Positions 41,930 to 60,125 of a stretch of DNA of 64,000 nt are shown one piece after another (position 1 is the first letter of the stretch; the number at the start of each line of letters is the position of its first letter). Source of the stretch: Leeuwenhoekiella sp. (GTDB lineage: Bacteria; Bacteroidota; Bacteroidia; Flavobacteriales; Flavobacteriaceae). The notes under the pieces are model-generated. The model searched no databases and had not been told where the DNA came from. It was given only the letters and a program-made list of their open reading frames with translations. Both the position numbers and the translations under genes were made by a program. The stretch is from NCBI GenBank assembly GCA_002708845.1, contig PAPI01000015.1, positions 1 through 64,000 of the forward strand, in the 5' to 3' direction.

Positions 41930-42021
41930 ACCACTCGTCTACACTTAACGACCACTCGTCTACACTTTGGGCAGGCTTCATCTAGGTTTGACTTTTTACA
42001 GCGATTTCTGATGCAATTTTG
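41930..42021 (+). promoter_or_regulatory. LytTR-type activator sites and promoter of the NO-sensing operon (promoter A)
   Basis: Two identical 17-bp sites, ACCACTCGTCTACACTT (41930-41946 and 41951-41967), are tandem at 21-bp spacing. The CGTC of the second starts at 41957, exactly 57 bp before the -7 element CAATTTTG (42014-42021), which precedes the ATG at 42059. The core resembles the AlgR (LytTR) site CCGTTCGTC. No strong -33 is visible, as expected for an activator-dependent promoter. The regulator encoded at the end of this operon is the obvious candidate for binding here. Confidence 0.75.
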
Positions 42022-42058
42022 TAGCTTCCCTAACTTGAAACTTGTGATCACACGTAAA

Positions 42059-42460
42059 ATGAATATCTTACTTATCGAAGATGACGCTATAGAAGTCATG
42101 AAACTGGAACGCGCTATTAGCAAACTGGGCGTCGAGCATCAGTTGATTAAAGCCCGTGACGGCGAGGAAGCGCTGTCGCTCTTGCAATCCGGAGGTGCTT
42201 TGCCAGATGTCGTTTTTCTGGATTTAAATATGCCCAAAATCAACGGGATTGATTTTTTAAAAATTCTAAAGGCTGACGAGCGTCTGCAATTTTTACCTAC
42301 AATGATATTAACGACATCGGCAAACCGAAAAGATATGTTGGAGTGCTATAAGATTGGGGTAGCCGGCTATCTTATTAAGCCTCTTAAATACGACGATTAC
42401 GTTAATAAAATTAAAATTGCTCTGGATTACTGGAGTATTAACGAACTTATAGATTCGTAA
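42059..42460 (+). CDS. Single-domain response regulator (Rcp1-type receiver)
   Basis: 133 residues, a stand-alone receiver domain. Visible residues are the acidic pair E7/D8/D9 (LLIEDD), phosphoacceptor D55 (VVFLDLNMPKING), the switch Thr in ILTTSA and the Lys in LIKPLK. There is no output domain, so it shuttles phosphate or docks on another protein. Its stop overlaps the next ATG by one base (TAATG, 42458-42462). The ATG at 42059 is preferred over 42011 because it removes leader codons lying in the promoter. Confidence 0.92.
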   Translation: MNILLIEDDAIEVMKLERAISKLGVEHQLIKARDGEEALSLLQSGGALPDVVFLDLNMPKINGIDFLKILKADERLQFLPTMILTTSANRKDMLECYKIGVAGYLIKPLKYDDYVNKIKIALDYWSINELIDS

Positions 42461-43002
42461 TGAAAGGAATTGTTTTTACAGAATTTTTGGAGCTGGTAGA
42501 AGAACGCTATGGTCTTGAGATGGTAGACCATCTCATCACCGAGGCAGATTTACCTTCCGGCGGAGTGTACACTTCTGTGGGGACGTATCAATTTTCGGAA
42601 ATGTTGAGTCTGCTTGTAGAACTCAGCGAACAAACCGGAACACCCATTGATTCCCTGCTCGAAGTTTACGGTGAGCATTTCTTTGGTGTGGTTTTAAAAA
42701 GTTATCCTGGTTTTATAGCTCAGTATACAGATCCATTAGATTTGCTGGCTTCTATAGAAAGCCACATACACGTTGAGGTACGCAAAATATATCCGGATGC
42801 CGAATTACCTGTTTTTCGCGTCCTGGAAAAAGACACCGATAAGCTTACTTTAGTGTACCGCTCCAGCAGGGCGATGTACGCTTTTGGTAAGGGACTCAAG
42901 CAGCGTACCCTGGCGCATTTTGGTCAGCAGGCAGAAATTCTGGTAGAAAAGATCAAAGAAGATGGTACCGAAGTGAAATTTAGTATCCGCATTCATGAGT
43001 AA
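42460..43002 (+). CDS. H-NOX (heme nitric-oxide-binding) protein
   Basis: 180 residues, a full stand-alone HNOB domain. The proximal heme ligand is H104 (SHIHVEVRKIYPDAELP), and the heme-propionate motif YxSxR is Y133-S135-R137 (LVYRSSRAMY). In characterised bacteria H-NOX binds NO and inhibits a co-encoded histidine kinase. Here it lies directly upstream of a PAS histidine kinase and overlaps it by 8 bp, matching that pairing. A distal-pocket Tyr that would favour O2 binding is not obvious, so NO is the likely ligand. Confidence 0.92.
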   Translation: MKGIVFTEFLELVEERYGLEMVDHLITEADLPSGGVYTSVGTYQFSEMLSLLVELSEQTGTPIDSLLEVYGEHFFGVVLKSYPGFIAQYTDPLDLLASIESHIHVEVRKIYPDAELPVFRVLEKDTDKLTLVYRSSRAMYAFGKGLKQRTLAHFGQQAEILVEKIKEDGTEVKFSIRIHE

Positions 43003-44971
43003 TAAACAACTGGAGCTATATGAAAGGGCTCTGGCCCGTGAACGTGCTGCCCGCAAAGAAGCTGAACGCATTCTGGAGGAAAAGTCGCGTGAGCTGTATT
43101 ACAAATCAGAAGAGCTTAAAAAAACCAACCAGAAACTCGAAAGTCTCGTACACACGGCACATTCTGAGTTGCAGGGCGTCTTTGGCAATATTGCCGATGC
43201 TTATGTGATGATGAATCTGGAAGGGGTTCCTATTAAAATGAATTCGGTTGCCGAGGAGCTTTTAGGTTATACCGTTGAGGATCACATCAACTTATATAAA
43301 CTGGTTGTTGAGGAGGATCAACATTTGGTAAGTAAAAGTTTTGAAAAACTTGTTACAACTGGCGCAATTACAAATTTTGAAATCAATATTCGCCGTTCAA
43401 ATGATGAGATTCGTTGTGTGCAAATCAATGCCAGCGTGATTTATGATCCTGCAAATAAACCTTTGGCTGCGCAGGGAATTGTACGCGATATTACCCTTCA
43501 AAAACAAAGTGAACAGGAGTTGATTGATTCTCAAAATCGTCTTTCTACCCTTATTCTCAATCTGGAAAGCGGCGTGCTCTTGGAAGATGAAAACCGAAAT
43601 ATCGTGATCACGAATAAGCGTTTCTGTGATTTCTTCAGTATTCCGGTTCCCCCAGAACTCTTACAGGGTCAGAACTGTGAACAGGCTGCTGAGCAAAGCA
43701 AAGATTTGTTTGAAAACCCGGAAGATTTTGTAAGCCGAATTAATGAATTGCTGGTCAATAAAGAGCAGGTGCTTGCAGACGAATTATCGATGCGCGATGG
43801 CCGCGTGCTAGAGCGTGATTTTATACCCATTTATGAAGATGGGTACTATAAGGGGCATTTGTGGACGTATCGTGATGTTACTTTACGCCGAAAATACCGG
43901 GAGAGTATTGAAGCCGAGCGTCAAAAATACAGCAACATCATCGCCAATATGAACCTGGGCCTTATTGAGGTAAACAATGATGATGAAATCCTAATGATTA
44001 ACCAAAGCCTTGAAGAAATGTCGGGCTATACCGAAGCTGAACTTTTAGGTGAAAAAGGAATGGACATTTTACTCTATCCCGGGGATCGCGATAAACTTAA
44101 TGCCGAGAATGAAAGCCGGCAGCATGGGGCTTCCAATTCCTATGAGATTCGTGCGCGTAGAAAAAACGGTGAATTAAGGCACTGGCTTATCAGTGGTGCA
44201 CCTAACTACAACATCAACGGGAAGGTGGTAGGCTCCATAGGTATTCATCTGGATATTACTGATCTTAAAAACCTGGAACTTCAAAAAGAAAACCTGCTTC
44301 GCAAACTGGAGAAGAGTAACGACGAATTGCAGGAATACGCTCATGTGGTTTCTCATGACTTGAAATCACCCCTGCGCAGTTTGAGCGCTTTGGTAGATTG
44401 GATCAGGGAAGACAACAGAGATTGCTTTGATGAGCAAACCTTCGCCAATTTTGGTTTGATTGACCAAACTCTTGAGAAGATGGAGCAGCTTATTTCAGAT
44501 GTGCTCAACTACTCGAGCATGGGCATAGAAAATAGCAAACGCGAGCAGGTGCCGGTTAAGCAGGTGCTTGATGATATAAGAACACTGATCCACATCCCAG
44601 AGCATATAAAACTCACGTATCCCGAAAATCTTCCTGTACTATTGGCAGACCGGGTGAAGCTGCAGCAACTTTTTCAAAACCTCATCGGCAATGCAATTGC
44701 ATATTGCGATAAAAATCCGGGTTGGGTGCAAATAAGTTGGGAGGAGCAGCAAAATGTCTATCTGTTTAAAGTGAGTGATAATGGAGTGGGCATTGCACCT
44801 GAGTATCACGACAAAATCTTTAAAATCTTTCAGTCTTTGCAAAAGCGGAAAGAGTCAACCGGCGTGGGATTATCGATAGTCAAAAAAATTGTGGAATTGT
44901 ATAACGGTAAGATTTGGCTGGAAAGTACACCGGGCGAAGGAACCACTTTTTACTTTACCTTAGTCAAATAG
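42995..44971 (+). CDS. PAS-domain sensor histidine kinase (H-NOX partner)
   Basis: 658 residues, soluble (no membrane segments). An N-terminal coiled coil (2-60) is followed by three PAS-like domains (about 60-170, 180-300, 310-430), a HisKA dimerisation domain with phosphoacceptor H454 (HVVSHDLKSPLR) and an HATPase domain with an N-box (NLIGNAIAY) and G boxes (SDNGVGIA, TGVGLSIVKKI). Its start overlaps the H-NOX gene. The cytosolic layout fits control by the soluble H-NOX sensor. The kinase core is clearly related to the second kinase of the operon. Confidence 0.92.
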   Translation: MSNKQLELYERALARERAARKEAERILEEKSRELYYKSEELKKTNQKLESLVHTAHSELQGVFGNIADAYVMMNLEGVPIKMNSVAEELLGYTVEDHINLYKLVVEEDQHLVSKSFEKLVTTGAITNFEINIRRSNDEIRCVQINASVIYDPANKPLAAQGIVRDITLQKQSEQELIDSQNRLSTLILNLESGVLLEDENRNIVITNKRFCDFFSIPVPPELLQGQNCEQAAEQSKDLFENPEDFVSRINELLVNKEQVLADELSMRDGRVLERDFIPIYEDGYYKGHLWTYRDVTLRRKYRESIEAERQKYSNIIANMNLGLIEVNNDDEILMINQSLEEMSGYTEAELLGEKGMDILLYPGDRDKLNAENESRQHGASNSYEIRARRKNGELRHWLISGAPNYNINGKVVGSIGIHLDITDLKNLELQKENLLRKLEKSNDELQEYAHVVSHDLKSPLRSLSALVDWIREDNRDCFDEQTFANFGLIDQTLEKMEQLISDVLNYSSMGIENSKREQVPVKQVLDDIRTLIHIPEHIKLTYPENLPVLLADRVKLQQLFQNLIGNAIAYCDKNPGWVQISWEEQQNVYLFKVSDNGVGIAPEYHDKIFKIFQSLQKRKESTGVGLSIVKKIVELYNGKIWLESTPGEGTTFYFTLVK

Positions 44972-44974: not shown

Positions 44975-46105
44975 ATGAAAACCCTACAACTACAACGAAA
45001 GCGTGATGAGGCCTGGCACTATGTTGGGCCTAGGTCAGATTTAAAAGAACCTCTGGTTTTAATATTTGGCAACCGTTTTTTGCTGGAAGAGGCTGCTACT
45101 TTTGAAGAAATACGTAAGCTTTTCCCGGATGGGCATCTGGTTTTTGGTTCGTCTAGCGGTGATTTGATTGCCGATTCGGTAAACGATGAGCATCTGAGTG
45201 TCACTGCTATCGAGTTTGAACGGGCCCTATTTGAAGTAAAAACCATCAATATAAGTACGGTAGCCTACAACAGCGAACTTGCCGGCCGCGAGGTAGTAAG
45301 CAAACTCAATCCCAACGGGCTCAAACACATTTTTGTGGTTTCAGAAGGCAGTTCGGTTAACGGTTCAGCATTGACTAAAGGGATGCAGGCTGCTGCTCCC
45401 AAGGTGTTAATCACCGGCGGTTTGTGTGGTGATGATGCGCGTTTTGAACGCACGCTTGCCGGTTATAATAAACCACCGGATGACGGGGAAATTGTGGTAA
45501 TTGGTTTTTACGGTGAAAGCTTTGAAGCTAGTTTCTCGCTTTACGGCGGATGGATTCCTTTTGGTCCGCAACGCGTGGTTACCCGTTCTGAAGGCAATGT
45601 ACTGTATGAAATAGACGGTAAACCAGCCCTTGATTTGTATCGAATGTATTTGGGCGAAAAGGCTAAAGAACTGCCGGGATCTGCGCTGATTTATCCGTTA
45701 AATGTTACCAGTACCGAAAACAATCAGGCTTTTGTACGCACCATTCTTCAGATTGACGAAAAGCAAAATGCGATGATTCTTGCCGGCGATGTACCCGAGC
45801 AGGCATTGGTACAGCTAATGATGACCAATATTGACAGCTTGGCGGTAGCATCAGAAACGGCAGCCTTACGGGCACTCGAGGGACGCACGACAAAACCCCA
45901 GTTGGCTTTGCTTATTAGCTGCATAGGGCGTAAACTGGTGCTCAATCAGCGGGTGGAGGAAGAGGTCGAGGAAGTCAGAGAAATACTGGGCGAGGAAGTA
46001 ATTATCAGCGGGATGTATTCCTACGGAGAAATCGCTCCGTTTTACGGCGAACGCAGTTGCAAACTACATAATCAAACGATGACCATTACTTTAATAAGTG
46101 AATGA
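44975..46105 (+). CDS. FIST-domain protein, NosP-like nitric-oxide sensor
   Basis: 376 residues: FIST N domain (about 25-220) with GSSSGDLIAD and ITGGLCGDDARFERT, then FIST C domain (225-365) with GSALIYPLN and SCIGRKLVLNQRVEEEVE. FIST proteins encoded next to histidine kinases have been shown to be heme-based NO sensors (NosP) in Pseudomonas, Vibrio and others. Here it sits between two kinases and directly overlaps (8 bp) the second, the same arrangement. The heme ligand cannot be assigned from sequence alone. Ligand is inferred from family and the H-NOX in the same operon. Confidence 0.85.
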   Translation: MKTLQLQRKRDEAWHYVGPRSDLKEPLVLIFGNRFLLEEAATFEEIRKLFPDGHLVFGSSSGDLIADSVNDEHLSVTAIEFERALFEVKTINISTVAYNSELAGREVVSKLNPNGLKHIFVVSEGSSVNGSALTKGMQAAAPKVLITGGLCGDDARFERTLAGYNKPPDDGEIVVIGFYGESFEASFSLYGGWIPFGPQRVVTRSEGNVLYEIDGKPALDLYRMYLGEKAKELPGSALIYPLNVTSTENNQAFVRTILQIDEKQNAMILAGDVPEQALVQLMMTNIDSLAVASETAALRALEGRTTKPQLALLISCIGRKLVLNQRVEEEVEEVREILGEEVIISGMYSYGEIAPFYGERSCKLHNQTMTITLISE

Positions 46106-47141
46106 TATGAACGAGCTGCTGAAACGTCAATTGCGAAAATACCTTCCTGAAGATCTTAAGGAGCGGGAGGATCTGCAGGCTTTTTTGCAGGCTGTTAGCG
46201 CTTCGTATGACAACCTCGAGGATCAGTTTAAGATGACCCAGCGGGCGATGAAGCTCAGTTCAGACGAACTCTACGAAGTCAACGTTTCTTTACGACAGGA
46301 AGCCGAAAAGCAGCGGGCACTCCTAAGTCGGTTTGAAGAGGTCGTAAACCGCGTGGCTCCCCCGACCGGCGCTCCCTTGCAGGATGGGAAAAACCTCTCT
46401 GATTACATCAGCCAACAGGCCGAAGAGCTTATAGCCCTTACCCAAAGACAGGAAGGTCTGCTGCAGGAACTCGAGCAGCAAAATCAGGAGCTGAGCGATT
46501 ATGCTCATATTGTATCTCACGATCTCAAATCGCCCTTACGCAATATAGACGCGCTGGTTTCCTGGCTCCGGGAAGATTATGCAGATGTGTTGGATGAAAA
46601 CGGACTGCAGCAAATGGACCTGATTAAAACACATCTGGGAAAAATGGATGCACTCATCGGCGGAATCCTGCATTACTCGACTATAGGCAGGGATAGTGGT
46701 ACCGAAAGTAAGATCGATTTGAATGTGCTGCTTCCGGATATTCTGGATGGGATTCAAATTCCCGAAGGTATAGATGTGCAGGTGCACCGGTTACCGGTAA
46801 TCACGGCCGATCGATTTAAGATTCAGCAGGTGTTTCAAAACCTGATTTGTAATGCGGTAACCAGTATTGAGCAACCCTCCGGAAAGATCAAAGTAGTAAG
46901 TCGGGAACTTGATAAAGGCCATCAATTTGAAATAAGCGATACCGGAAAGGGTATTGATTCCAATTACTTCGATAAAATCTTTAAAGTCTTTCAGAAACTG
47001 GAGCATGATTCTGCCACGACCGGGATAGGACTATCTATTGTCAAAAAGATTGTAAACTTTTATGGTGGAAGTATTTGGCTGGACAGTGAGCCGGGCAAAG
47101 GCACCACTTTTTATTTCACACTACCACAAACCGAAAAATAA
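46098..47141 (+). CDS. Histidine kinase (NosP partner)
   Basis: 347 residues, soluble, with an N-terminal helical/coiled-coil region (1-130) in place of PAS domains. HisKA carries phosphoacceptor H141 (HIVSHDLKSPLR), and the HATPase domain contains NLICNAVTS, SDTGKGID and TGIGLSIVKKI. The kinase core is strongly similar to that of the kinase at 42995 (SHDLKSPLR, DKIFKVFQ, GTTFYFTL), indicating duplication within the operon. The start overlaps the FIST gene by 8 bp; an ATG three codons later is also possible. Pairing with the FIST protein is inferred from overlap and known NosP-kinase operons. Confidence 0.9.
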   Translation: MNDMNELLKRQLRKYLPEDLKEREDLQAFLQAVSASYDNLEDQFKMTQRAMKLSSDELYEVNVSLRQEAEKQRALLSRFEEVVNRVAPPTGAPLQDGKNLSDYISQQAEELIALTQRQEGLLQELEQQNQELSDYAHIVSHDLKSPLRNIDALVSWLREDYADVLDENGLQQMDLIKTHLGKMDALIGGILHYSTIGRDSGTESKIDLNVLLPDILDGIQIPEGIDVQVHRLPVITADRFKIQQVFQNLICNAVTSIEQPSGKIKVVSRELDKGHQFEISDTGKGIDSNYFDKIFKVFQKLEHDSATTGIGLSIVKKIVNFYGGSIWLDSEPGKGTTFYFTLPQTEK

Positions 47142-47143: not shown

Positions 47144-47461
47144 ATGAAAAGCCCTAACCTTTCCTATATTGATAATTTGGCTGCAGACGATGAACGTTTC
47201 CGCAGTGAGTTTATCGCCATCCTGAAAACCGAACTTCCTTTGGAGGTGGAGCTTTACCGCCGATATATAGAGCAGGAGGAGTGGAAATCTGCCGCAGAGA
47301 GTGTGCATAAAATGAAGCATAAACTGGGAATTGCCAGTATGGACGAGGCATACGAAATCGCCATTCGTTACGAAGAAGAACTTAAGACCGGTTCCAAAAA
47401 CTCACAAATCGCCTTTGAACGGGAGCTTAAACGACTTTCTGATTTTGTAAGTGACTTATAA
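47144..47461 (+). CDS. Hpt-domain phosphotransfer protein
   Basis: 105 residues, nearly all helical, with the Hpt motif SVHKMKHKLGIASM; H55 is the likely phosphorylated His. An Hpt between two kinases and a DNA-binding regulator is the expected middle step of a branched phosphorelay: kinase(s), a receiver, Hpt, then the LytTR regulator. It follows the second kinase by 2 bp. Confidence 0.87.
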   Translation: MKSPNLSYIDNLAADDERFRSEFIAILKTELPLEVELYRRYIEQEEWKSAAESVHKMKHKLGIASMDEAYEIAIRYEEELKTGSKNSQIAFERELKRLSDFVSDL

Positions 47462-47496: not shown

Positions 47497-48216
47497 GTGA
47501 ACTGTATTATTGTAGATGATGAAGCCGCTTCGCGAATGATCGTATCACACCTGTGCAGTCAGGTTGATGATGTTACGGTAATTGATGAATTTCCCAACGC
47601 CCTTCAGGCGATTAAATTTTTGAACAAGAATGAAGTCGATTTTATCTTTCTCGACATTCATATGCCCGATTTTACCGGCTTTGACTTTTTAGATACGCTG
47701 GCTAATCCGCCTAAAGTGATACTTACCACCTCAGACCGTAATTTTGCCATTGAAGCTTTCGAATACGATTGTATCGTTGATTATCTGGTAAAACCCATTA
47801 CCTTGCCACGGTTTATCAAAGCATTACAACGGCTTGAAAGTGCACCGGCTGCTGCTGCACCCGTGACACCTAAAGAAACCCCAGCAAATCCGGAAGCTTC
47901 CACAGAAAAGGAAATGTATGTAAATATTGACCGCCGTCTAATTAAAATCGAATTTGATAAAATCTTTTTGATTGAAGCTAAAGGCGATTACATTCTGATT
48001 AAGACCGAGCAAAAGAACTACACGGTGCATTCAACACTTAAGAAAATAGAAGAGAAATTACCGGATCATTTATTTGTAAAAGTGCATCGCTCGTATATCA
48101 TCAACATCAAGAAGATTATTGATATTGAAGATAACAGTGTGCTCATCGCCCGTGACGTGATCCCCATCAGCCGGTCTAATCGGCCTGAATTGATGAAGCG
48201 TCTCAATCTACTTTAA
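47497..48216 (+). CDS. LytTR-family response regulator (output of the NO relay)
   Basis: 239 residues from a GTG start at 47497 (MNCIIVDDEAA), preferred because it places the receiver's DDE at the normal position. Receiver domain 1-115 with phosphoacceptor D53 (FIFLDIHMPDF) and the Lys in YLVKPIT; an Ala/Pro-rich linker (116-138); and a LytTR DNA-binding domain (140-239: IFLIEAKGDYILI, FVKVHRSYIIN, IPISRSNR). LytTR proteins bind pairs of direct-repeat sites about two helical turns apart. Such pairs occur at promoters in this locus. It ends 5 bp before the convergent TPR/barrel gene. Confidence 0.92.
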   Translation: MNCIIVDDEAASRMIVSHLCSQVDDVTVIDEFPNALQAIKFLNKNEVDFIFLDIHMPDFTGFDFLDTLANPPKVILTTSDRNFAIEAFEYDCIVDYLVKPITLPRFIKALQRLESAPAAAAPVTPKETPANPEASTEKEMYVNIDRRLIKIEFDKIFLIEAKGDYILIKTEQKNYTVHSTLKKIEEKLPDHLFVKVHRSYIINIKKIIDIEDNSVLIARDVIPISRSNRPELMKRLNLL

Positions 48217-48221: not shown

Positions 48222-50243
48222 CTAAAGTTTAAACACCGGCTTTGCTAAGAACTGCCATCTCAGTTTTAAACCTATTTCGGTGAACTCAAAACCTGCTGCT
48301 GTTGCTGAGGCCACGTTGCTGTACTTCGCGTAAAACCCTGCATCCAGACGATCAGATAGGGTGTGGTTGATGCTGGCTTCGAGTCTGAATAGCGTAGAAG
48401 CTTTGTCTTTTTCAACAAACTGATATCCACCTGCTGCATTGGCCGCATACTGCCAGTTTTTAATACTTCCATTTAAATCTGCAAAAAGCTCCACCGCCTG
48501 ATAGCTCGACGGACTAAAATACAGCGTAGGCACCTGGTCTTTAAAACCGACATATTGATAGTTGATTCCCCCTTTTAAGGCTGGCGCCTTGGTAAAGGTG
48601 TAATAGATTGAGGTAAACAACAGCTTACGCTGGTTGCCATCAGTTTGTGGGGTAAACATAAGCCCGGTGTACCAGCCGAGATTTATATTCGTTCCCATAT
48701 TGTAATTGAGCTTGTAGTTATTCATAAAGATCTTTTGATCAATCAGGGTGGCGTTAAAGTTTTGCAGTTCCCGACTGTAACCCAATTCTAAATATTGAAG
48801 GGGCAGGGGACGGGCTTTCAATACCACCGATCCGTTCACGTCGGTATAGCTGTTGACATCGGCTTCAGCCTTAAGGACTCCCAGGTTAGCTTCAATCCAG
48901 GTGTTGTTATAAATGCGGTATTGAACGCCAAAATTAAAACTGCTGTTCGATGCCTGTGCATTTACATCGGCATTAGCCGTTTTGCGGTAGTCGTAATTGA
49001 TTTGCGTACGAAAGCGGTAGGACACCGGGAACAGAACGCTTAATCCTGTAGCATAAGCGCGGTTACCTCCATTATCCCGGGTGTAGGCCGCACGTGGCAT
49101 AACCTGAGGAGCAAGACTGCCGGAAAGGGTTTGCATTAAGCCCAGCGCATCTTTTTGACCTTCATAATATTCGGTAGTTTTTTGGGCGAAAGCATGGGCT
49201 TTGTCAAGGTTACCCTGAGCCCGGTAGGCGTTTGCGATACCCAGGTTTCCGTCAAAGGAGGTGGAATCCTGCTCTAAAATGGACTGATAATGCGCAATAC
49301 TGGTTTTAAAGGTTCCGGTATACATCCCCAGACTTGCTTTTAAAGCTAGAATACGCGGGGCATTGCCATAAACCTGATCCAGGCTGTCTAAGGTTTTACG
49401 TGCGGTTTTGAACTTTTGATTCCAGATCAGCGCCTGTACATAACGCTCACTGGCCTGTATGCTTTGTAGGGAGTCTTTCGGGCTGAAGGCTTTTGCTTGT
49501 TGTGCCAGCTCCAATGCTTTTTGTTCTGCTCCGTCCAGATGTGCAACCAGGGATTGCCCGGTTAAAACCGCAACCGAATCAGACATACGACCATAAGTTG
49601 TAAAGGCTGCATCGTAGTTTTTCTGGGCAATGTGGGTATTAGCCAAAACCTGTAAGCTGAGTGCATCTGCTTCAAAATCCTTAAGGTTTTCGTCAAGCAA
49701 AGCGAGGGCATTAGTAAAGTCGGCTTCACTGCTTAACTGGTTGGCTCTGCCCAGACGTATGTATTTACGGGAAACCAGCGCGTTGGGATTACCCGGCTGA
49801 ATGCTCAGCGCCTGATTAACACGTTGCAGTGCCTTGTCATATTCTTTAAGATTGGATAAGGTATTGGCATAACCCAAAACCGCCGAAAAGCTGGTGCTGT
49901 CTGTCTTTACCAGATCTTCGTAAACCGTTTTGGCTTCGTTGAAGTTTTCGCCCCATAACAACGATTCGGCATAGTTGAGGGCGATTTCAAAATCCCCGGG
50001 GTATTCGGTTTGCAATTGGGTAAACAGGGCAGTGGCTTCAGCCGTCGCCCCGCTTAATCCTAAAGCTCTTCCGTAGCACAGGCGGGCAGTCTTGTTGGTG
50101 GGATATTCTTCCAGGATGTCTTTAAAAAAGAGTTTGGCCTTCACGTATTTGCCTTCTTCCAGCAAATTAAATCCGGAAGTCATTTCCTGAGCATAAGCCC
50201 AATTGGCGAAACATATACTAATAAAAAGAACCAGTTTTTTCAT
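48222..50243 (-). CDS. TPR and outer-membrane beta-barrel protein (YaiO/PgaA-like)
   Basis: 673 residues from the ATG at 50241-50243, giving a signal peptide (MKKLVLFISICFANWAYAQ). About 10-11 TPR-like repeats (residues 20-385; for example KLFFKDILEEYPTNKTARL, AVLGYANTLSNLKEYDKAL) are followed by an outer-membrane barrel (about 400-673) of the YaiO type. Proteins joining periplasmic TPRs to a barrel (PgaA, BcsC, AlgK/AlgE, PelB) export exopolysaccharide, so an export role fits the neighbouring glycosyltransferases. It converges on the LytTR gene. The longer start at 50303 reads across a palindrome and is rejected. Confidence 0.8.
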   Translation of the reverse strand: MKKLVLFISICFANWAYAQEMTSGFNLLEEGKYVKAKLFFKDILEEYPTNKTARLCYGRALGLSGATAEATALFTQLQTEYPGDFEIALNYAESLLWGENFNEAKTVYEDLVKTDSTSFSAVLGYANTLSNLKEYDKALQRVNQALSIQPGNPNALVSRKYIRLGRANQLSSEADFTNALALLDENLKDFEADALSLQVLANTHIAQKNYDAAFTTYGRMSDSVAVLTGQSLVAHLDGAEQKALELAQQAKAFSPKDSLQSIQASERYVQALIWNQKFKTARKTLDSLDQVYGNAPRILALKASLGMYTGTFKTSIAHYQSILEQDSTSFDGNLGIANAYRAQGNLDKAHAFAQKTTEYYEGQKDALGLMQTLSGSLAPQVMPRAAYTRDNGGNRAYATGLSVLFPVSYRFRTQINYDYRKTANADVNAQASNSSFNFGVQYRIYNNTWIEANLGVLKAEADVNSYTDVNGSVVLKARPLPLQYLELGYSRELQNFNATLIDQKIFMNNYKLNYNMGTNINLGWYTGLMFTPQTDGNQRKLLFTSIYYTFTKAPALKGGINYQYVGFKDQVPTLYFSPSSYQAVELFADLNGSIKNWQYAANAAGGYQFVEKDKASTLFRLEASINHTLSDRLDAGFYAKYSNVASATAAGFEFTEIGLKLRWQFLAKPVFKL

Positions 50244-50280
50244 CGTCGTTATTTTATGGATGCAAGTTAGAAGCAGTTCG

Positions 50281-50297
50281 TACAGATTCAATCTGTA
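50281..50297. promoter_or_regulatory. Perfect palindrome upstream of the TPR/barrel gene
   Basis: TACAGATT-C-AATCTGTA, a 17-bp perfect palindrome, lies 38 bp upstream of the start codon of the minus-strand exporter gene, within its likely promoter. A CGTC-containing sequence similar to the LytTR sites (CAACTCGTCGATACT, 50306-50320) is just beyond it. It is a candidate operator. Confidence 0.5.
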
Positions 50298-52158: not shown

Positions 52159-53361
52159 ATGAAATTAGCAATCGTAACCGCCTATCCTCCCAGCAAAGTA
52201 ACCCTTAATGAATATGCTTACCATTTAGTAAAACATTTCCGCCAGCTTGAAGAAGTAAGCGAAATCGTCCTGTTAACCGATGTGGAAGCTGACGAGGCCG
52301 ACATTCGTTTTGAAGAGGAAGGCTGCAGCGTAAAAGTCATCAACTGCTGGAAGTTTAACAGCTACCGCAACGTATTGACCATCACTAAAACCCTCAAAGC
52401 TCTGAAACCCGATGCCGTACTGTATAACCTTCAGTTTATGAAGTTTGGGGATCAAAAGATTCCGGCAGCATTGGGCTTATTCGCTCCGTTTTTTAGCAAA
52501 CTGATGGGGATGAAAACCATTGTTTTACTGCACAACATTATGGAAGCTGTAGACCTGAACCAGGCCGGATTTACCTCCAATAAACTGAAGATCAAAATCT
52601 TTAACCTAATCGGTTCTGTACTTACCCGCGTGGTGCTTAAGGCCGATAAAGTTGCCCTTACTATTGGCAACTACGTCACCTTGCTCGAAGAAAAGTACAA
52701 GGCCAAAAACTGTATGTTAATCCCGCACGGCACTTTTGAACTCGCCGAAGAACCCACTTTTGAGATACCCGAAGGCCCTATGAAGATTATGACTTTTGGA
52801 AAATTTGGTACCTATAAAAAAGTAGAAGTGCTTATTGAAGCGGTAGAGCAGGCCCGTAAAATTACCGGGAAGGAACTGGAAGTGGTTATCGCCGGTACCG
52901 ACAACCCGAATACTTTGGGCTATCTGGCCGGAGTACAGGCTAAGTATGCGCACCTGCCTAATATTCAGTTTACCGGATATGTAGCAGAAGAAGATGTACC
53001 CCGCATTTTTACCGAAAGCGCAATGGTGGTGTTCCCCTACACTTCAACAACCGGCAGCAGCGGCGTACTACACCAGGCCGGAAGTTATGGTAAAGCCGTT
53101 GTGATGCCTGATCTGGGAGACCTTGCACTCTTAGTTAAAGAGGAAGGCTACCGCGGGGAGTTTTTTGAGCCTGAAAACCCAACAAGTCTGGCGCAGGCTA
53201 TCGCAAAGCTGGTTGTAAACACGGCTTATCGTACGGAGCTGGCTAAAGCCAATTTTGAAGCGGCCAATGCTCTGCCTATGTCGGTGATCGCGCAATGCTA
53301 TCTGGATGCATTTAAACAAATAGAAATAGAAAGCCGTTCAGAAGAACTAGTGGCGGCCTAA
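52159..53361 (+). CDS. GT4-family (GT-B fold) glycosyltransferase
   Basis: 400 residues from the ATG at 52159 (MKLAIVTAYPP). Two Rossmann halves: N-terminal acceptor side (AIVTAYPPSKVTLNEYAYHL), C-terminal nucleotide-sugar side with MKIMTFGKFGTYKKVEVLIEA near 210 and VVFPYTSTTGSSGVLHQAGSYGKAVV near 290. It transfers a sugar from a nucleotide donor during chain assembly in the cytosol; the sugar cannot be read from sequence. It has its own regulated promoter C and ends one base before the stop of the convergent hydrolase gene. Confidence 0.88.
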   Translation: MKLAIVTAYPPSKVTLNEYAYHLVKHFRQLEEVSEIVLLTDVEADEADIRFEEEGCSVKVINCWKFNSYRNVLTITKTLKALKPDAVLYNLQFMKFGDQKIPAALGLFAPFFSKLMGMKTIVLLHNIMEAVDLNQAGFTSNKLKIKIFNLIGSVLTRVVLKADKVALTIGNYVTLLEEKYKAKNCMLIPHGTFELAEEPTFEIPEGPMKIMTFGKFGTYKKVEVLIEAVEQARKITGKELEVVIAGTDNPNTLGYLAGVQAKYAHLPNIQFTGYVAEEDVPRIFTESAMVVFPYTSTTGSSGVLHQAGSYGKAVVMPDLGDLALLVKEEGYRGEFFEPENPTSLAQAIAKLVVNTAYRTELAKANFEAANALPMSVIAQCYLDAFKQIEIESRSEELVAA

Positions 53362-54873
53362 TCAGCGGTCTCTGATCGTATAATAAGCCGGGTCTTTCAC
53401 CCCATTTTGATCAATAATACCAAAATAGCCCTGCTTGTTTTTACGCCAGGGAAGCCTACCGGCAACACGCTCTGGGACATCCCTAAAGTCGAAGAGCGTC
53501 CAGGAGAGATAGTTTATGCTGTCTCTCCTTTTTATTTGCATAAATTCGGTGTAAAAATCATCCTGACTTTTTGCACCAATACCGAAGCCATTCCAGATTC
53601 CGGAGTAGGAGGAGTAGCCTATTTCCTGAAGTACAACAGGCTTTGAGGTTTGCTGTTTCAGGTTTTGGTGGGCTTCAGCAAGGTCCTCAAGATCCCGGTA
53701 ATAGTGATACGAAACCACATCTACCTCATTTTCGAGGAGGATAGCTGCTTCGGGTGTCGACCAGCCAATAGTTATCGGATGTTCGGCGTCAAGCTCTTTT
53801 AATTTCTGAATGCTTTGGCGAAGCCAAAGCAGAACCTCTTCTTTGCCCCGGGATTCAAAATCCAGATCGGGTTCGTTTTTCAAGTCCCAACCCCACAGGG
53901 CCGGATGCTCTTTCAGATGATTTACAATGCCGCTTAGGTGTTTGTTGGTCAGCGTATAGTCGTTGAGGTTGTAATTTCCATAGAAATCAAAAAGCGTCAC
54001 CATCACTTTTAGCCCTGCTTTATCTGCCTCATCTAAGAGCCGAGTGAGCTTCTCCAACTTTGCAGGATTTAGGTTTGTTTTGCCAAAATCTTCATAGCCC
54101 ACAAATACGCGAATGCAATTCAATTTTAAGTCGGTCACCAGTTTAAAATCTTCAGCAAGGACTGAAGGATCAAAGTTTTCACCAAAAGTATCCCACGGAC
54201 TGTCCTGCGGATAGTAGTTGATGCCTTCTAAAACTTCCGCCTTCATTTGAATTGGATCAGCTACAACCGAATCCTGCCGGGCCTCCAGCTTTTCTAAATG
54301 CCGGATGCGCCAAAAGCCGTCTTCGAGCAGGAGTACCACCCGGTAATCTGCATTAAATCTGTGGGTTGTAATGAGTTTGTTGTTAGTATAGATTTTTTCG
54401 ATCCCGCTTACATCACGGTCAGTAAGCACCGCCAGCTTGCCGTCTGCACTGTAAAACTCCAGACTGGGGTGGTGGGTCAGTGTGGTGGATTCTACTTTGA
54501 TTCCGTTGGTCTGGTTAAGGGCGATCAAGTCTTTAAGCTTGACGCGGGCGCTTGAGGTATAGTGATCGTTTATACCGGTCTCGTCACCCTTAAACAGCGC
54601 ATTGTTGCGCACATACCAGGCATCCAGATAATCCTGTTCGAGCCGGGTTTGGTTTGCGGGTTCCAGGGGTCTGCCGGGGTTTTCAACAGATTCCCAGATT
54701 ACATCGGGCAGGTAATAATCCCCACGTTTGGCATCGAGATGAAGCATCGTTGATTTATCTGCACCCGTGTTGAGGTAGGCAATGATCTGGCTGATGCCAT
54801 AGAGAATCCCGGCGTTGACCAGCACAAAAATGAGCAGAATGGCAGCTCTTAGTATGGTTTTGTTACGGTTCAC
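53362..54873 (-). CDS. Membrane-anchored glycoside hydrolase (clan GH-A, GH5/GH39-like)
   Basis: 503 residues from a GTG start. A membrane anchor (8-32) precedes an NTF2/SnoaL-like domain (about 75-200: LEQDYLDAWYVRN ... DGFWRIRHLEKLE), then a (beta/alpha)8 hydrolase (215-500) with acid/base E334 (GWDLKNEPDLDF) and nucleophile E417 (PVVLQEIGYSS). Exopolysaccharide loci often include a hydrolase (PslG, PelA, BcsZ) that trims the chain during export, and this fits that role. Its GTG overlaps the stop of the upstream gene (GTGA), so three genes are translationally coupled on the minus strand. Confidence 0.85.
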   Translation of the reverse strand: MNRNKTILRAAILLIFVLVNAGILYGISQIIAYLNTGADKSTMLHLDAKRGDYYLPDVIWESVENPGRPLEPANQTRLEQDYLDAWYVRNNALFKGDETGINDHYTSSARVKLKDLIALNQTNGIKVESTTLTHHPSLEFYSADGKLAVLTDRDVSGIEKIYTNNKLITTHRFNADYRVVLLLEDGFWRIRHLEKLEARQDSVVADPIQMKAEVLEGINYYPQDSPWDTFGENFDPSVLAEDFKLVTDLKLNCIRVFVGYEDFGKTNLNPAKLEKLTRLLDEADKAGLKVMVTLFDFYGNYNLNDYTLTNKHLSGIVNHLKEHPALWGWDLKNEPDLDFESRGKEEVLLWLRQSIQKLKELDAEHPITIGWSTPEAAILLENEVDVVSYHYYRDLEDLAEAHQNLKQQTSKPVVLQEIGYSSYSGIWNGFGIGAKSQDDFYTEFMQIKRRDSINYLSWTLFDFRDVPERVAGRLPWRKNKQGYFGIIDQNGVKDPAYYTIRDR

Positions 54874-56096
54874 TGCAGCACGATGGTTTTTTGGGTAGTT
54901 AAACCTAAAGCTTTTACGATAACGCGGTATTCTCCTGCGGCAAATTTTTCCGGATTGAGGTCAAAAGAAGCTCTGCCGTCTTTGGTTTTGAGGATTTGAG
55001 TTGTGTTACCAATTTGGATTTCGACACGAACTCCATCAGGAATTAACTGTCCCAGATAACTGGTAATGGGTCCTACCTGAATGCTTCGGTCTTTAAGAGA
55101 AAACGGAAGTTCGTTAGTCGCCGGTTTAAAGCTGACCTGGGCAGAACCACTGCGGGCGATCCCCTTGACGACTGCCTCAACCGTCCAGGTGGTGGGAAAT
55201 TCCGGGTGCAGCACAGGTGCAAAGGCAAAACCGTTGAGGCTGGGTGCCGCAGTTTTCCAGCGGTAGCCGCGGTCGTCTTTCATATAAAAATAAACCAGAG
55301 TTCCATCGGTAATCACATTGCCGTGGCCATCTCTGATCTGATCGGTTTTGAAGGTGAGCAGCGCATTACCGTCTGCATAGGGATGCAGATGATCTATGCT
55401 GAGGTTGAAGTTTTCTGCCAGATCGGGATACACATCCGCGACGAGTTCGCGCGAGGCACTGTTGCCCAAAACACTGGCGGTGGTGATCCTACCGGTTTGC
55501 AGGGGTGCGGAGATGTTTTTCCAGGCAAAGCCTTTATCAATTGTGGCCGGGGTCGTCGTAATCGCATCCCGAAACTGATGTTTGATGAACAATGGTGTCC
55601 CGTTGGGCAGCAGGTTGTCGAGGTAATCGGTTGGCAGACTCACTAACATGGTATAATCGCGCTCGCTGGCAACAATGCTTCGCGGTCCCAGGTAATTTTC
55701 GAGTTCGCCCAATTGGGTCGTATCAGCCTGCAGATCAAAACGGCCTTGCTGAATCGTGCGGCTTCCTTCCTGTAATTGCCAGGAGATTACCCCGGCGTGT
55801 TTGGTCAATTCAGGTGGAATCTGGAAAACGGGAACATCATTAGTAAGCTCGGGTTTTAAAACGGTGGTACCATAGGTGCCTGATGCAATAAGGCAAATGG
55901 AATCCTTAAGCGGAAGTTCGTATTCCGAAATCCGAACGGATATGCCTTGGGGCGTGACTGTTTGTGAACCGGGAATTTCGAGTTTTAAAGCCTGCTGTTT
56001 TTGGTTCTGATCAGCAGATTGGGTCCCCCGGGCAACCCAAAAAAGACCCAGAATGAGCAAGGCTAAACCAATGCGGTATGTGTGTGTGGTTTTCAT
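54870..56096 (-). CDS. Periplasmic Ig-like/beta-sandwich protein of unknown function
   Basis: 408 residues, with an N-terminal membrane anchor or signal (IGLALLILGLFWVARGTQ), then several beta-sandwich domains with repeated strand motifs. Residues about 165-305 contain GLVYFYMKDDRGYRWKT-like strands, and the C-terminus again resembles a surface-exposed sandwich. I do not recognise the family. It overlaps the GT-C-like gene upstream and the hydrolase downstream by 4 bp each (ATGA, GTGA), so its product almost certainly works with them, perhaps as a scaffold or polymer-binding part. Confidence 0.75.
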   Translation of the reverse strand: MKTTHTYRIGLALLILGLFWVARGTQSADQNQKQQALKLEIPGSQTVTPQGISVRISEYELPLKDSICLIASGTYGTTVLKPELTNDVPVFQIPPELTKHAGVISWQLQEGSRTIQQGRFDLQADTTQLGELENYLGPRSIVASERDYTMLVSLPTDYLDNLLPNGTPLFIKHQFRDAITTTPATIDKGFAWKNISAPLQTGRITTASVLGNSASRELVADVYPDLAENFNLSIDHLHPYADGNALLTFKTDQIRDGHGNVITDGTLVYFYMKDDRGYRWKTAAPSLNGFAFAPVLHPEFPTTWTVEAVVKGIARSGSAQVSFKPATNELPFSLKDRSIQVGPITSYLGQLIPDGVRVEIQIGNTTQILKTKDGRASFDLNPEKFAAGEYRVIVKALGLTTQKTIVLQ

Positions 56097-59000
56097 CGTG
56101 GATTTCCAATATACGCATTTGGCGTGATGCTCAGATATTGATAGGGCATCCCGTTTATTTCGATGAGTTCTTCGGCTTTGCCAAAATCGTTTCGGTAGGG
56201 TACAATTTTATCGGAAATACTTTGATTGGGCAGTCCGTTTACCGAAACCGTACTCAGACCTGAAGCACAAATCTGAGGCCATACGCCGGTATATAGAGTG
56301 ATTTCAAAAGGCTGTTTGCGCTGCTGCCGCACGCTTTCGTCCACATAGGTAGCATCAACCCAAACCAATTGCTGCTCCCGGTTGTAATAGGAGGTGAGTA
56401 ACTGCGGAATGGTTGCCGCTTCGGTGGTGGGGTTGAAGAGGAAACCGGTGAGTTGCGTCCCTTCCTGCTGCAGCTTGGCCGGGGAAATGGCCTGATACAA
56501 ATCGGTTGTGGCGACATTGGCTTTTACCTGAACCTCAAAACTCTCAACTGCTTGAGGCAGGGAATCTCCCGGAATGGGAACAAAATCAATGCGGAAGGGC
56601 GTGGTTTCTTTGGGCAACAGCTTGTGTTTTACCAGATCTTGCGCGTTGTAGCGTGCCTCCTCCCGGTTTTGAGCATCGTACAGGGCTCCGGTGACCGAGA
56701 TATCTGCGGGAATGTTGTCTACATTCTGAATTTCACCTACTATATAAAACAAGCTATCACGCTGAACGAGTTGGGCCGAAAGTACCTCGACCACAGGTTG
56801 CTTCAGGATGTCTTCGTGATAGGTTTGCTCTGAAGTTATCTTGCGTTTACCGTGGTTGTACCAGGCGGTGGTATTTTCAGTAAGCAATTGGTCTGGCGGA
56901 ATATCGGGATCAACCGTATCGGCTCTTAAAAACCAATCGCCTTTGCGTTTTACCAGTTGGAGGCTGTCTATGGTATTGATGATTTTGAGCGGAGTGACCC
57001 ATTCCGAACGGGCAACGGCATAGGCTGTTGAGTCGGTCGTGGAAAGCAATTCGACATCAATGCGGTCGAGCTTGGCATACGAACTCAGCAAACCGTCTGA
57101 TACCGAAATTTCAAGCATAAACTGGGCGATGCTTTTTCCGCTTTGCGGATCGATATAGGAATGTGCCCGCTCAAACTCTTTAAAATCCATCGCATCGTAA
57201 TAGGCCAACACGGCATTTGTAGGACTGAGCTGCTCTTCACTTTTGATATAAAACAGGTACATCCCAAAGCAAAAGAAACCGGTCATCAGCAGAACCCAAA
57301 CCAGAGAAATTCGGTACAGTAATCCCGATATACGCTGTCTGGAGGGGACAAAATTTAAATAGACCGCTCTTTGTTCGTTACCTTTTTTAAAGGAGCGCGT
57401 CCACATGGATTTGAGGTGGAGCAGCAAGGCTATAATCACGGTCAAAAAAGGAATGGTGCCCCACATCAATTTTAAAAATAAGGCTACATCTTCTTTAGGA
57501 ATAAAGCTGGGCAGGGGTTCTATGCCTGATTTTTCCCAAACCTGAATCCCGTTTTCGAGAACGCTAAGGCGGTGCCAGCCTGTAAAATACAGCAACGGAT
57601 CGTAGAACTTATCGTTTGAAAACACGTACTTCAAATGGTATTTTTCGGGAACCGTAAGAAACTGTTGTAGGGAGCCGATGCCTTCTATTCCGCGATACTT
57701 GGAATTTTCAAGACGTTCTACCGCGCGGGAAGTGAGTTCGGGCAGGCGGCGTGCCGAATGGTAATCTCCGTCAACCGTGGTAGCGGGGGTAAGGGCCGAA
57801 AGCCAGGACATTTGATCGCCAAAGCCCAAAGGTAAATAGCGCCATTTATCGTGGTTGTCCTGATTGAGGAAGTTTACAATAGGCAGCATATTTAAAGTCG
57901 CTGGCTGGCTGGGTCTGAATTTACCCAGGGTAACCGTAAAAATGGCGATAGCGATAAATACACCGGCCAAAAAGCCACCCGATACCCGATGCAAAAGGGA
58001 ACCCCATTTAGACTGCAGGTATTGTTTGTAATCGCCTTCTACAAAACGGTAGCAGAATTCTCCAAAAGCAGGAAGAGCCATAATAGATGCCCAAAGCGTA
58101 AAGCGGTCTAGCGTTAGGATGTTAAAGGCATTTTCGCCCAAAATTTTCAACGGAATGGGCGTGGTACCTCCGGTTCCCAATATCAATAAGAGGGTAAAGC
58201 TGATGCCAAAAAACAACAGGCGTTTGCTGTAATAGCGGTAAAAGAAGTAGGGTAGGAGCAACAGTAAAATTCCCCAGGGAATGATGAAAAATGCGAGTCC
58301 GGATGAGGTTACTTCCAAAAAATTATCCCGCGAACCGTGTGGGATGGGCACCTGGGTAATTGGGTTTTTTTTGGTGTTGATCCAATACGGAAGGATGCAG
58401 ACTACGATCAGTACTAGCGACGAAGCACCAAAAATGATGATACGTTTAAGATGACTCCACAGCGTTTTAATAAATAGGACGAGGGTAACCTCCCGGTTGC
58501 TGCAAACCTTTTCGCGGGCGGCATCCATAATTACCATTCCGATTAAGGGAAAAATAAAGAATACCATCCCAAATATAGGCGTGACATGGTGTGAGGTAAC
58601 GGTGACCGAAAGCAGGGCAAGGGCTTTAAACAAATGCCTTTTGCGGGCGGTTTTAAGCCACAGGTAGATTTCCGGCAGGGCGTGCATCAGTACTGAAATG
58701 CCAATGATGCTGGGCAGTTGCCCAAAAATATGCAGGGTTTCCACAAAAGAGGAGGAGAATACTGCAAGAATGGCGGCGTAACCGGCTACTTTTTTATCGG
58801 GGATTAGCACCAGCGTAAAACGGTATACTCCGGTAATGAATAAGACAATGCCTACAAAAGCCAGGGTAAACATTCCAAATTTGAGTCCGCCCACGAGCGA
58901 AAGTGCCCCAATGATCTGGTGTACCAGCGGCGGATAGCCCATTACGGTAAAGCCGGTGTACCAGCTGTAGCTCCAGGGTTCAAACCAACTGGTCGCGTAA

Positions 59001-59131
59001 TGGTTGGCAAAAAAGAGGTGTATGAGGGCGTCGTAGGTACGTTCCAGCGTAAAAAAGATGGAAGTACCGTGCACAATGATACCCAGCAGTACTGCGGTGA
59101 CCAGGTATTTATTGGTTTGATTTGCCTTCAT
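56093..59131 (-). CDS. Large GT-C-like membrane protein (PTPS-related/YfhO-type)
   Basis: 1012 residues from the ATG at 59129-59131 (a GTG one codon upstream is an alternative). The N-terminal about 590 residues hold some 12-13 membrane helices with RTYDALIHLFFANHY after the first, an acidic residue in the first periplasmic loop as in GT-C transferases, and YPPLVHQIIGAL. A soluble NTF2/SnoaL-like domain (about 640-750) follows, then beta-rich domains. The 'PTPS-related' membrane family carries this pattern. It may add sugars from a polyprenyl-phosphate donor in the periplasm, supplied by the GT2 at 59313. First gene of the coupled three-gene set. Confidence 0.8.
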   Translation of the reverse strand: MKANQTNKYLVTAVLLGIIVHGTSIFFTLERTYDALIHLFFANHYATSWFEPWSYSWYTGFTVMGYPPLVHQIIGALSLVGGLKFGMFTLAFVGIVLFITGVYRFTLVLIPDKKVAGYAAILAVFSSSFVETLHIFGQLPSIIGISVLMHALPEIYLWLKTARKRHLFKALALLSVTVTSHHVTPIFGMVFFIFPLIGMVIMDAAREKVCSNREVTLVLFIKTLWSHLKRIIIFGASSLVLIVVCILPYWINTKKNPITQVPIPHGSRDNFLEVTSSGLAFFIIPWGILLLLLPYFFYRYYSKRLLFFGISFTLLLILGTGGTTPIPLKILGENAFNILTLDRFTLWASIMALPAFGEFCYRFVEGDYKQYLQSKWGSLLHRVSGGFLAGVFIAIAIFTVTLGKFRPSQPATLNMLPIVNFLNQDNHDKWRYLPLGFGDQMSWLSALTPATTVDGDYHSARRLPELTSRAVERLENSKYRGIEGIGSLQQFLTVPEKYHLKYVFSNDKFYDPLLYFTGWHRLSVLENGIQVWEKSGIEPLPSFIPKEDVALFLKLMWGTIPFLTVIIALLLHLKSMWTRSFKKGNEQRAVYLNFVPSRQRISGLLYRISLVWVLLMTGFFCFGMYLFYIKSEEQLSPTNAVLAYYDAMDFKEFERAHSYIDPQSGKSIAQFMLEISVSDGLLSSYAKLDRIDVELLSTTDSTAYAVARSEWVTPLKIINTIDSLQLVKRKGDWFLRADTVDPDIPPDQLLTENTTAWYNHGKRKITSEQTYHEDILKQPVVEVLSAQLVQRDSLFYIVGEIQNVDNIPADISVTGALYDAQNREEARYNAQDLVKHKLLPKETTPFRIDFVPIPGDSLPQAVESFEVQVKANVATTDLYQAISPAKLQQEGTQLTGFLFNPTTEAATIPQLLTSYYNREQQLVWVDATYVDESVRQQRKQPFEITLYTGVWPQICASGLSTVSVNGLPNQSISDKIVPYRNDFGKAEELIEINGMPYQYLSITPNAYIGNPR

Positions 59132-59184
59132 CACGTGTTTCGGTGCTTTTTGTTTTGCTTAGGGTAAAGATAGGATATTCGATA

Positions 59185-59277
59185 ACTGGTTCGTCTGTCG
59201 ACGAATGGTTTCCGTCTACAGAAACGGTTCAGTCACAGAGAAACTCCATTTTTCGTCGTGAGACGCAGGTATGTTTG
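59185..59277 (+). promoter_or_regulatory. LytTR-type activator sites and promoter of the GT2 gene (promoter D)
   Basis: CGTC cores at 59192 (TGGTTCGTCTGTC) and 59213 (TTTCCGTCTACA) are 21 bp apart. The second lies exactly 57 bp before the -7 element TATGTTTG (59270-59277), a perfect TAnnTTTG. The GT2 ATG follows at 59313. Confidence 0.72.
59196..59209 (-). promoter_or_regulatory. LytTR-type site on the minus strand, divergent region
   Basis: The reverse complement here is ACCATTCGTCGACA, identical over 14 bp to the proximal site of promoter C. It overlaps the plus-strand sites of promoter D and points toward the minus-strand three-gene set starting at 59131. No -7 element lies at 57 bp in that direction; the nearest candidate (TATCTTTA, 59172 to 59165) is 31 bp from its CGTC. 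Confidence 0.5.
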
Positions 59278-59312
59278 TACGGTAATTAATACAAACCCAA
59301 AAATCTACTACG

Positions 59313-60125
59313 ATGAAAACAGGTATCATCATTCCGTGCTACAACGAAGAAAAACGTTTAAATCAGGAAGCGTTTGTACGCTTTGCCCAGGAGCACGAAG
59401 ACTATCATTTATGTTTTGTAAACGATGGCAGTAAAGACCGCACCCTAAATGTATTGAACCGTATGCGTGCTCAGGCACCTTCAGGAATCAGTATTGTAGA
59501 CGTCAAGAAAAATTCAGGCAAAGCCACTGCCGTTCGTGCCGGTGCCCGCTACTTATATACGCTTGATGAAATTGCCTACATAGGTTTTATGGATGCCGAT
59601 CTATCTACCGATTTTCGGGATTTTAAAGATCTGGTAACTACTCTTAAGCGCGAGCGCGTGTCTATGGTTTTTGGTTCGCGAAATTCGGGCGGTGGGGGTA
59701 TTGAGCGTAATTTTATGCGCAGCCTTTTTTCCAACTTTATCAAGCAGTTTATCCTGCTCATTTTAGGCTTACCTATCAGAGACACGCAGTGTGGGGCCAA
59801 AGTATTTACCCGTGATATTATTCCGGTGCTTTATGAGCAGGGTTTTGTAAGCAAATGGCTTTTTGATGTCGAAATCTTTTTAAGACTGAAAACCTATTTG
59901 GGTAAAGAACAGACTCTAAAGCAAATCATCGAGCAACCGCTGATGCGTTGGGTGCACGTAGACGACTCCCGATTGGGTATGAAAGACGCCATCGAAATCC
60001 CAGGAAAACTCGCCCAGATTTGGTTAACTTACACGATGCCTGGCCTTATGCAAGCTTCAAGACCTGTTGCTGAACCAGCTTTAGCGATTTATGCCGGAGT
60101 TCCTGAATTGCGTGTTGCAGCTTAA
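59313..60125 (+). CDS. GT2-family glycosyltransferase (dolichyl-phosphate-sugar synthase-like)
   Basis: 270 residues, a single GT-A domain without the C-terminal membrane helices of cellulose-type synthases. Visible motifs are IIPCYNEEKRL (donor loop), VNDGSKDRTL, the DxD-type GFMDADLSTD and SRNSGGGG. The layout matches DPM1/ALG5-like enzymes that load a sugar on polyprenyl phosphate. The product would be the donor for GT-C-type periplasmic transferases such as the protein at 56093. Its own promoter D carries the regulon geometry. The stop is followed by about 360 bp without a gene. Confidence 0.87.
   Translation: MKTGIIIPCYNEEKRLNQEAFVRFAQEHEDYHLCFVNDGSKDRTLNVLNRMRAQAPSGISIVDVKKNSGKATAVRAGARYLYTLDEIAYIGFMDADLSTDFRDFKDLVTTLKRERVSMVFGSRNSGGGGIERNFMRSLFSNFIKQFILLILGLPIRDTQCGAKVFTRDIIPVLYEQGFVSKWLFDVEIFLRLKTYLGKEQTLKQIIEQPLMRWVHVDDSRLGMKDAIEIPGKLAQIWLTYTMPGLMQASRPVAEPALAIYAGVPELRVAA

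Follow-up and report, generated by a model that had tools for sequence, protein, structure and literature searches.

Why should four promoters in one stretch of Leeuwenhoekiella DNA (the window, 64,000 nucleotides) share the same spacing between a CGTC core and a -7 box, and which protein would read such sites? A sequence-only reading of the window took them for a LytTR regulon that joins a sensor/regulator operon to genes for a flippase and two glycosyltransferases. Having followed the sites through this genome and its relatives, we assign a probability of roughly 70% to an autoregulated LytTR regulon driven by an NO-sensing phosphorelay. The features on which this view is built are listed in Table 1.

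Table 1. Genes, putative regulator sites and predicted promoter boxes in the window, in order of position.
Feature	Position	Strand	Evidence
Tandem LytTR-type sites, two exact ACCACTCGTCTACA copies 21 bp apart	41930..41964	+	Motif search; pair kept in relatives
Predicted operon promoter -7 box CAATTTTG	42014..42021	+	57 bp from nearer CGTC
CheY-like receiver protein	42059..42460	+	Pfam Response_reg 9.3e-21
H-NOX haem NO/O2-binding protein	42460..43002	+	Pfam HNOB 2.7e-37; solved relative 6bde E 1.3e-73
Soluble PAS histidine kinase	42995..44971	+	Pfam, hydropathy scan
FIST protein, NosP-like	44975..46105	+	Pfam FIST 2.4e-39, FIST_C 1.7e-33
Soluble histidine kinase adjoining FIST gene	46098..47141	+	Pfam
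HPt phosphotransfer protein	47144..47461	+	22.2 bits, below Pfam cut-off 24.6
REC-LytTR response regulator, candidate reader of sites	47497..48216	+	Pfam LytTR 2.8e-20, Response_reg 1.9e-17
TPR protein, weak BcsC-barrel similarity, possible polysaccharide exporter	48222..50303	-	TPR_19 3.7e-30; BCSC_C 0.00044, below cut-off
Strong site ACCATTCGTCTACA and degenerate mate (9/14) 21 bp downstream	50544..50578	+	Motif scoring
Predicted flippase promoter -7 box CATCTTTG	50607..50614	+	57 bp from core
Polysaccharide flippase-type membrane protein	50783..52039	+	10 hydropathy segments; orthologue L079 Polysacc_synt_3 1.5e-13
Weak upstream half-site (9/14) and strong site ACCATTCGTCGACA	52026..52060	+	Motif scoring
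Predicted GT4 promoter -7 box CATTTTTG	52110..52117	+	57 bp from core
GT4 glycosyltransferase	52159..53361	+	Glyco_trans_1_4 5.1e-19
Divergent three-gene unit: GH5-like protein, 408-aa protein, 1013-aa membrane protein	53362..59134	-	Kept with module in relatives
Two weak forward half-sites (8/14, 9/14), 21 bp apart, GT2 promoter	59186..59220	+	Motif scoring
Perfect inverted site ACCATTCGTCGACA toward 1013-aa gene	59196..59209	-	Motif search
Predicted GT2 promoter -7 box TATGTTTG	59270..59277	+	57 bp from forward CGTC
GT2 glycosyltransferase	59313..60125	+	Glycos_transf_2 2.9e-23

A pattern scan of the window recovers every coordinate of the four CGTC/-7 pairs first noticed in the sequence: CGTC-N53-[TC]AnnTTTG is present at 41957/42014, 50550/50607, 52053/52110 and 59213/59270, each with an exact distance of 57 bp. 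The pattern CGTC-N53-YAnnTTTG has five matches in the window compared to a mean of 0.20 and a maximum of 1 in shuffled sequence, and none of 100 shuffles reaches five. Likewise, CGTC-to-YAnnTTTG pairs average 0.31 per offset between 20 and 120, while offset 57 has five and offset 78 has three. The fifth match, at 52674, lies within the GT4 gene and lacks a 14-mer site, and was taken as chance. Between site and box, the sequences of the four promoters are unrelated.

Across the 4,353,457-base genome there are five exact copies of the 14-mer ACCAYTCGTCKACA, always inside 17.3 kb of the window (plus strand at 41930, 41951, 50544 and 52047; minus strand at 59209-59196). Looser versions are unremarkable by count: the exact 13-mer has five genome matches versus two for the control, one mismatch in the 14-mer gives six on both strands versus eight for the reversed pattern, and three mismatches give 11 in the window versus 9.7 expected, no better than chance; the significance of the motif therefore rests on its clustering and geometry. 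The second CGTC that had been placed 21 bp upstream at three promoters does lie there (41936, 52032 and 59192), yet the partners at 52032 (9/14) and 59192 (8/14) are weak. A similar qualification applies to the GT2 promoter, where the geometry stands but the forward site is weak (9/14) and the perfect 14-mer sits inverted on the minus strand; on the side of the 1013-aa gene, YAnnTTTG is absent at both 57 and 78 bp from this inverted site.

The sensor/regulator operon ends in a LytTR gene, as had been read, and the LytTR domain of its product passes the Pfam cut-off; the nearest NCBIfam model for this regulator is E. coli BtsR. Previously unrecognised were the H-NOX protein and the NosP-like FIST protein, with which the operon becomes a candidate REC / H-NOX / PAS kinase / FIST / kinase / HPt / REC-LytTR series that would combine two putative NO sensors with one phosphorelay. 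The H-NOX gene directly adjoins a kinase gene, its candidate signalling partner, and the FIST protein has both N and C domains with a kinase gene next door, which is the NosP arrangement. Against the curated NCBIfam NosP equivalog the FIST protein scores 53.7 bits where the cut-off is 450, and we call it "NosP-like" only. It is the presence of H-NOX and this NosP-like protein in the operon that leads us to name NO as the probable signal. A simple hydropathy scan found no membrane segments in the seven operon proteins, which would suit sensors of a diffusible gas.

The closest named relative of the H-NOX protein, among the best 80 of at least 544 loci, is that of Leeuwenhoekiella nanhaiensis (89% identical). 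Its closest solved relatives, 6bde_A and 6bdd_A (E about 1e-73), carry the molecule name aldolase, which looks mislabelled; the nearest chain is presumably an H-NOX, unlike its entry label. The receiver gene start was taken as ATG 42059, downstream of the -7 box, and an alternative start at 42011 lies upstream of it. The operon promoter is directly preceded by a 952-aa ORF (38994-41852) that carries a type IX sorting tail and weakly matches GH30.

In named genomes, we took the best 80 of at least 544 H-NOX loci, of which 78 had 700 bp of upstream sequence and two were dropped for missing sequence. A site of at least 12/14 lies ahead of the orthologous operon in 71 of the 78 loci, and a tandem pair in 68, with a best spacing of 21 bp in 60, 22 bp in five and another value in three. 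At the same loci, the reversed motif gave one site and no pair, and eight shuffled motifs gave 0-3 sites and no pair. Thus the sites and spacing, which the sequence-only reading had proposed to seek in related genomes, are conserved before orthologous genes with controls near zero. Gene content is conserved as well: in the 70 named loci longer than 20 kb, the response regulator, H-NOX and LytTR genes are present in all 70, the first kinase in 69 and HPt in 67, with the second kinase in 53 and FIST in 47 (absent from 23).

The promoter geometry extends to the family. A loose pattern matched 91 of 249 family genomes but with many control matches; the strict pattern that took its place, CAYTCGTCKACA-N48-50-YAnnTTTG, has 57 matches in 34 of the 249 genomes and none for the reversed control. 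Around 181 non-redundant sites that score 13/14 or better, nAnnTTTG boxes are concentrated at two distances from the core, 56-58 and 77-79 bp, and any other offset holds at most two boxes in each class. When the box is relaxed to [TCG]AnnTTT, 91 sites have one at 56-58 and 38 at 77-79 (129/181), and 52 at neither. The two classes carry their mates differently: against an overall mean mate score of 4.2, the 57 class averages 7.5 at 21 bp upstream and 6.5 at 21 bp downstream, and the 78 class averages 9.5 at 21 bp downstream, with a faint third half-site at +42 (5.9). Operon promoters in the relatives have two good sites in tandem; where a strong site stands alone, its mate 21 bp downstream is degenerate. 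As judged from sequence, these are repeats at a fixed distance just upstream of predicted promoters.

Does the site travel with the LytTR gene? Defining an orthologue as at least 54% identical with E 7e-76 or better, we found one in 30 of 99 relatives; the nearest matches below this line are a second copy in G036 (51%) and G082 (46%). The 13-mer is present in 22 of the 30 genomes with the orthologue and in 8 of the 69 others (Fisher 2.5e-9, ignoring relatedness), so the co-occurrence that had been suggested as a check is there. All eight matches in orthologue-less genomes fall inside open frames of 83-904 codons and have no good mate, and two of them (G087 and G095) have a box-like match at 57. 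The genomes that have a GT4 orthologue are exactly those with a flippase orthologue, 22 of the 99, and every one of them is LytTR-positive. Rearranged genomes are consistent with this co-inheritance. In G023, perfect sites with a box at 57 belong to a receiver-LytTR pair that lies on a different contig from the H-NOX operon; that operon has lost LytTR and, like its adjoining GT4 and flippase genes, is devoid of sites. In G059, which lacks H-NOX but retains receiver, kinase and LytTR, the tandem site still precedes the receiver gene; G017, without H-NOX and FIST, has sites just after LytTR and before GT4; and G012, which keeps FIST and lacks H-NOX, has sites after LytTR. Across these comparisons, the site goes with LytTR rather than with H-NOX.

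The glycosyltransferases and the flippase had also been named as targets; of these candidates, GT4 and GT2 are clear by Pfam and the flippase is recognised through its orthologue only, since the protein itself has no Pfam match. Together with the weakly matching exporter, these genes would form a polysaccharide export module. A Pel-type exopolysaccharide system is not claimed, as Pel families are absent from the profile matches obtained. Solved-structure searches with the 1013-aa, flippase-type and 408-aa proteins returned nothing useful; the 1013-aa protein has nine hydropathy segments, and two of the three divergent-unit proteins are without a confident Pfam or solved-structure match.

In relatives, the genes behind sites include orthologues of the response regulator/H-NOX operon, flippase, GT4 and GT2 and, on the opposite strand, of the 1013-aa protein (three loci). 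When 297 sites were grouped by target (exact duplicates dropped, tandem mates counted apart), the operon accounted for 120 sites at 92 loci, a large protein for 62 at 51, a mixed GT2/receiver group for 27 at 24, flippase for 19 at 18, GT4 for 18 at 17 and a CAP-domain-type group for 12 at 11, plus smaller groups. The tested member of the large-protein group has a type IX sorting tail and that of the CAP group is a CAP-domain protein. No site scoring 12/14 or more accompanies 9 of 23 GT4 and 11 of 24 flippase-type matches; the shuffled-motif averages are 0.24 and 0.14, respectively.

Operon genes aside, what most often follows a site in relatives is a gene for a large secreted protein that has a type IX tail and DUF4114 or DUF6923 (for example, L070:9863-12442). 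We read 13 regions upstream of the flippase gene, from relatives or this genome, and in six of them (L245, L249, L251, L258-L260) an ORF of 92-106 aa separates the site from the gene. Among the products tested, one passes the Pfam STAS cut-off (2e-7) and one of the other type weakly matches STAS_2. In the window (50638-50772) and in two near relatives, the ORF at this place is just 44-46 aa long.

The regulon had been described within the window, and in this respect the description was too narrow. On contig C24 of the same genome (L294:6634-9114), a type IX-tailed 826-aa protein lies behind a site (13/14, TAnnTTTG at 56) and aligns with the large protein of the relatives over 582 residues at 31% identity; lying on a separate contig, this site supports the regulon model. 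Contig C20 has a 12/14 match with a box at 58 and weak mates, and contig C4 a one-mismatch match to the 14-mer.

How might these parts work together? H-NOX and NosP act on partner kinases in the systems covered by the relevant sections of PMC6769237 and PMC11237717, and this suggests a chain from NO sensors through a phosphorelay and LytTR to surface polysaccharide. The H-NOX and FIST/NosP-like proteins would bind NO and alter the neighbouring soluble kinases, and phosphate would pass from kinase to CheY-like receiver, to HPt and to the receiver of the LytTR protein. A LytTR dimer would then bind 9-bp repeats with a 21-bp period and the consensus ACCATTCGTCKACACTTAA. The flavobacterial sigma-A box TAnnTTTG spans -12 to -5 according to the promoter passages of PMC9723704. 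With the -7 box so placed, the measured distances would put the strong repeat at about -75 to -67 and the weaker mate at -54 to -46, which agrees with the published LytTR repeat position: in the promoters described in excerpts of PMC6193735, a 12-bp gap usually separates the 9-bp repeats, and these often stand 10 bp ahead of -35. Operon promoters could carry a further repeat upstream. The LytTR-regulon reading is strengthened accordingly in that repeat length and period match published LytTR promoters, while its sites, spacing and co-occurrence with LytTR hold. The targets of the regulator would be its own operon, a type IX-secreted protein encoded outside the window and a surface-polysaccharide module made up of flippase, GT4 and GT2, perhaps with the divergent unit, and it would probably activate rather than repress them.

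It could be that the regulon is real and NO is not its main signal, in which case the PAS kinase would sense something else, and H-NOX and FIST would be optional modulators responding to oxygen, redox or another cue. In its favour, H-NOX is missing from G059 and G017, where receiver, kinase and LytTR persist, and from G012, and FIST is missing from 23 of 70 loci. However, H-NOX adjoins the relay in every one of the 70 full-length named loci, though those loci were picked by H-NOX, and in the unselected set of 99 genomes an H-NOX match is found in 27 of the 30 that are LytTR-positive; we regard another main signal as unlikely, if worth keeping in mind. We find it much harder to believe that a different DNA-binding protein, such as a paralogous LytTR regulator, reads the sites. 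At least two more LytTR paralogues, 41% and 35% identical, are encoded in this genome, but the site stands before the operon that contains LytTR, stays with LytTR where that gene is parted from H-NOX (G023) and is reduced to stray coding matches in orthologue-less genomes, although 27 of these 69 have a paralogue at E 1e-40 or better.

That four sites fall within 17 kb might point to chance or to a promoter segment copied within the locus. Both are contradicted by the shuffles and by the reversed and shuffled motifs, by the unrelated site-to-box sequences and by the recurrence of the same targets in other genera, which makes this explanation barely conceivable; chance is ruled out by the motif controls at 78 loci and by the strict pattern (57 versus 0 in 249 genomes). 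Some observations do weigh against an NO-driven LytTR regulon, namely the 52 of 181 boxless sites, the site-less GT4 and flippase genes, the distance of FIST from the NosP cut-off, the inverted site without promoter geometry and cross-genome associations that take no account of relatedness. Nevertheless, we favour the NO-driven LytTR regulon, and lean, with somewhat less assurance, toward a fuller version in which the H-NOX and NosP-like sensors of marine flavobacteria feed a single HPt phosphorelay, and a LytTR activator whose site code can be read controls a surface-polysaccharide module and type IX-secreted proteins with no c-di-GMP step, an undescribed pathway from NO to transcription.

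NO control of bacterial communities in Proteobacteria runs via c-di-GMP or quorum-sensing relays, as set out in portions of PMC6769237 and PMC11237717; if our reading is true, NO is here carried to DNA via a LytTR regulator. What emerges is an operator code and a list of targets, both predicted, for one transcription regulator of marine Flavobacteriaceae, together with its probable signal. The sites, promoters and proteins concerned are short and conserved, and they can be tested directly in laboratory strains. Among the open-licence literature matches listed, we found neither H-NOX joined with a LytTR regulator in Flavobacteriaceae nor a relay shared by H-NOX and a NosP-like sensor that has a LytTR output and an operator code. 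Both terms occur in two of the listed papers, PMC6769237, whose sole LytTR mention concerns AgrA, and PMC8396549. Each part is of a known kind; the combination of H-NOX, NosP-like sensor, one relay and LytTR output, which we did not find in this literature, would be the new element.

The promoters resemble those of HdrR, BrsR and other LytTR proteins, for which excerpts of PMC6193735 describe 9-bp ACC-type direct repeats with a 12-bp gap upstream of the promoter, and autoregulation. Compared to these, a flavobacterial -7 box replaces -35/-10, many targets have a single strong site with a degenerate mate, and the regulator would be fed by a multi-protein relay with haem sensors. The core CCGTTCGTC also resembles the CCATTCGTC of AlgR in Pseudomonas aeruginosa, which controls exopolysaccharide genes, but AlgR does not require direct repeats with a 12-bp spacing, and its sites may be found hundreds of bases away (PMC4064291, in part). 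CoxC and RcoM, as portrayed in sections of PMC11347149, likewise couple a diatomic gas signal to LytTR output, through three direct repeats about 18-21 bp apart; they differ in that the sensor is fused to LytTR in one protein, the signal is CO and CoxC represses. Closest on the sensory side are the H-NOX/NosP pathways of Vibrio and Legionella, in which, according to the same portions of PMC6769237 and PMC11237717, haem NO sensors adjoin histidine kinases, NosP lies beside its kinase and outputs are biofilm-related. Those outputs are c-di-GMP enzymes, a CheY-like protein or LuxU, whereas here both candidate sensors, HPt and the LytTR regulator are encoded in one operon.
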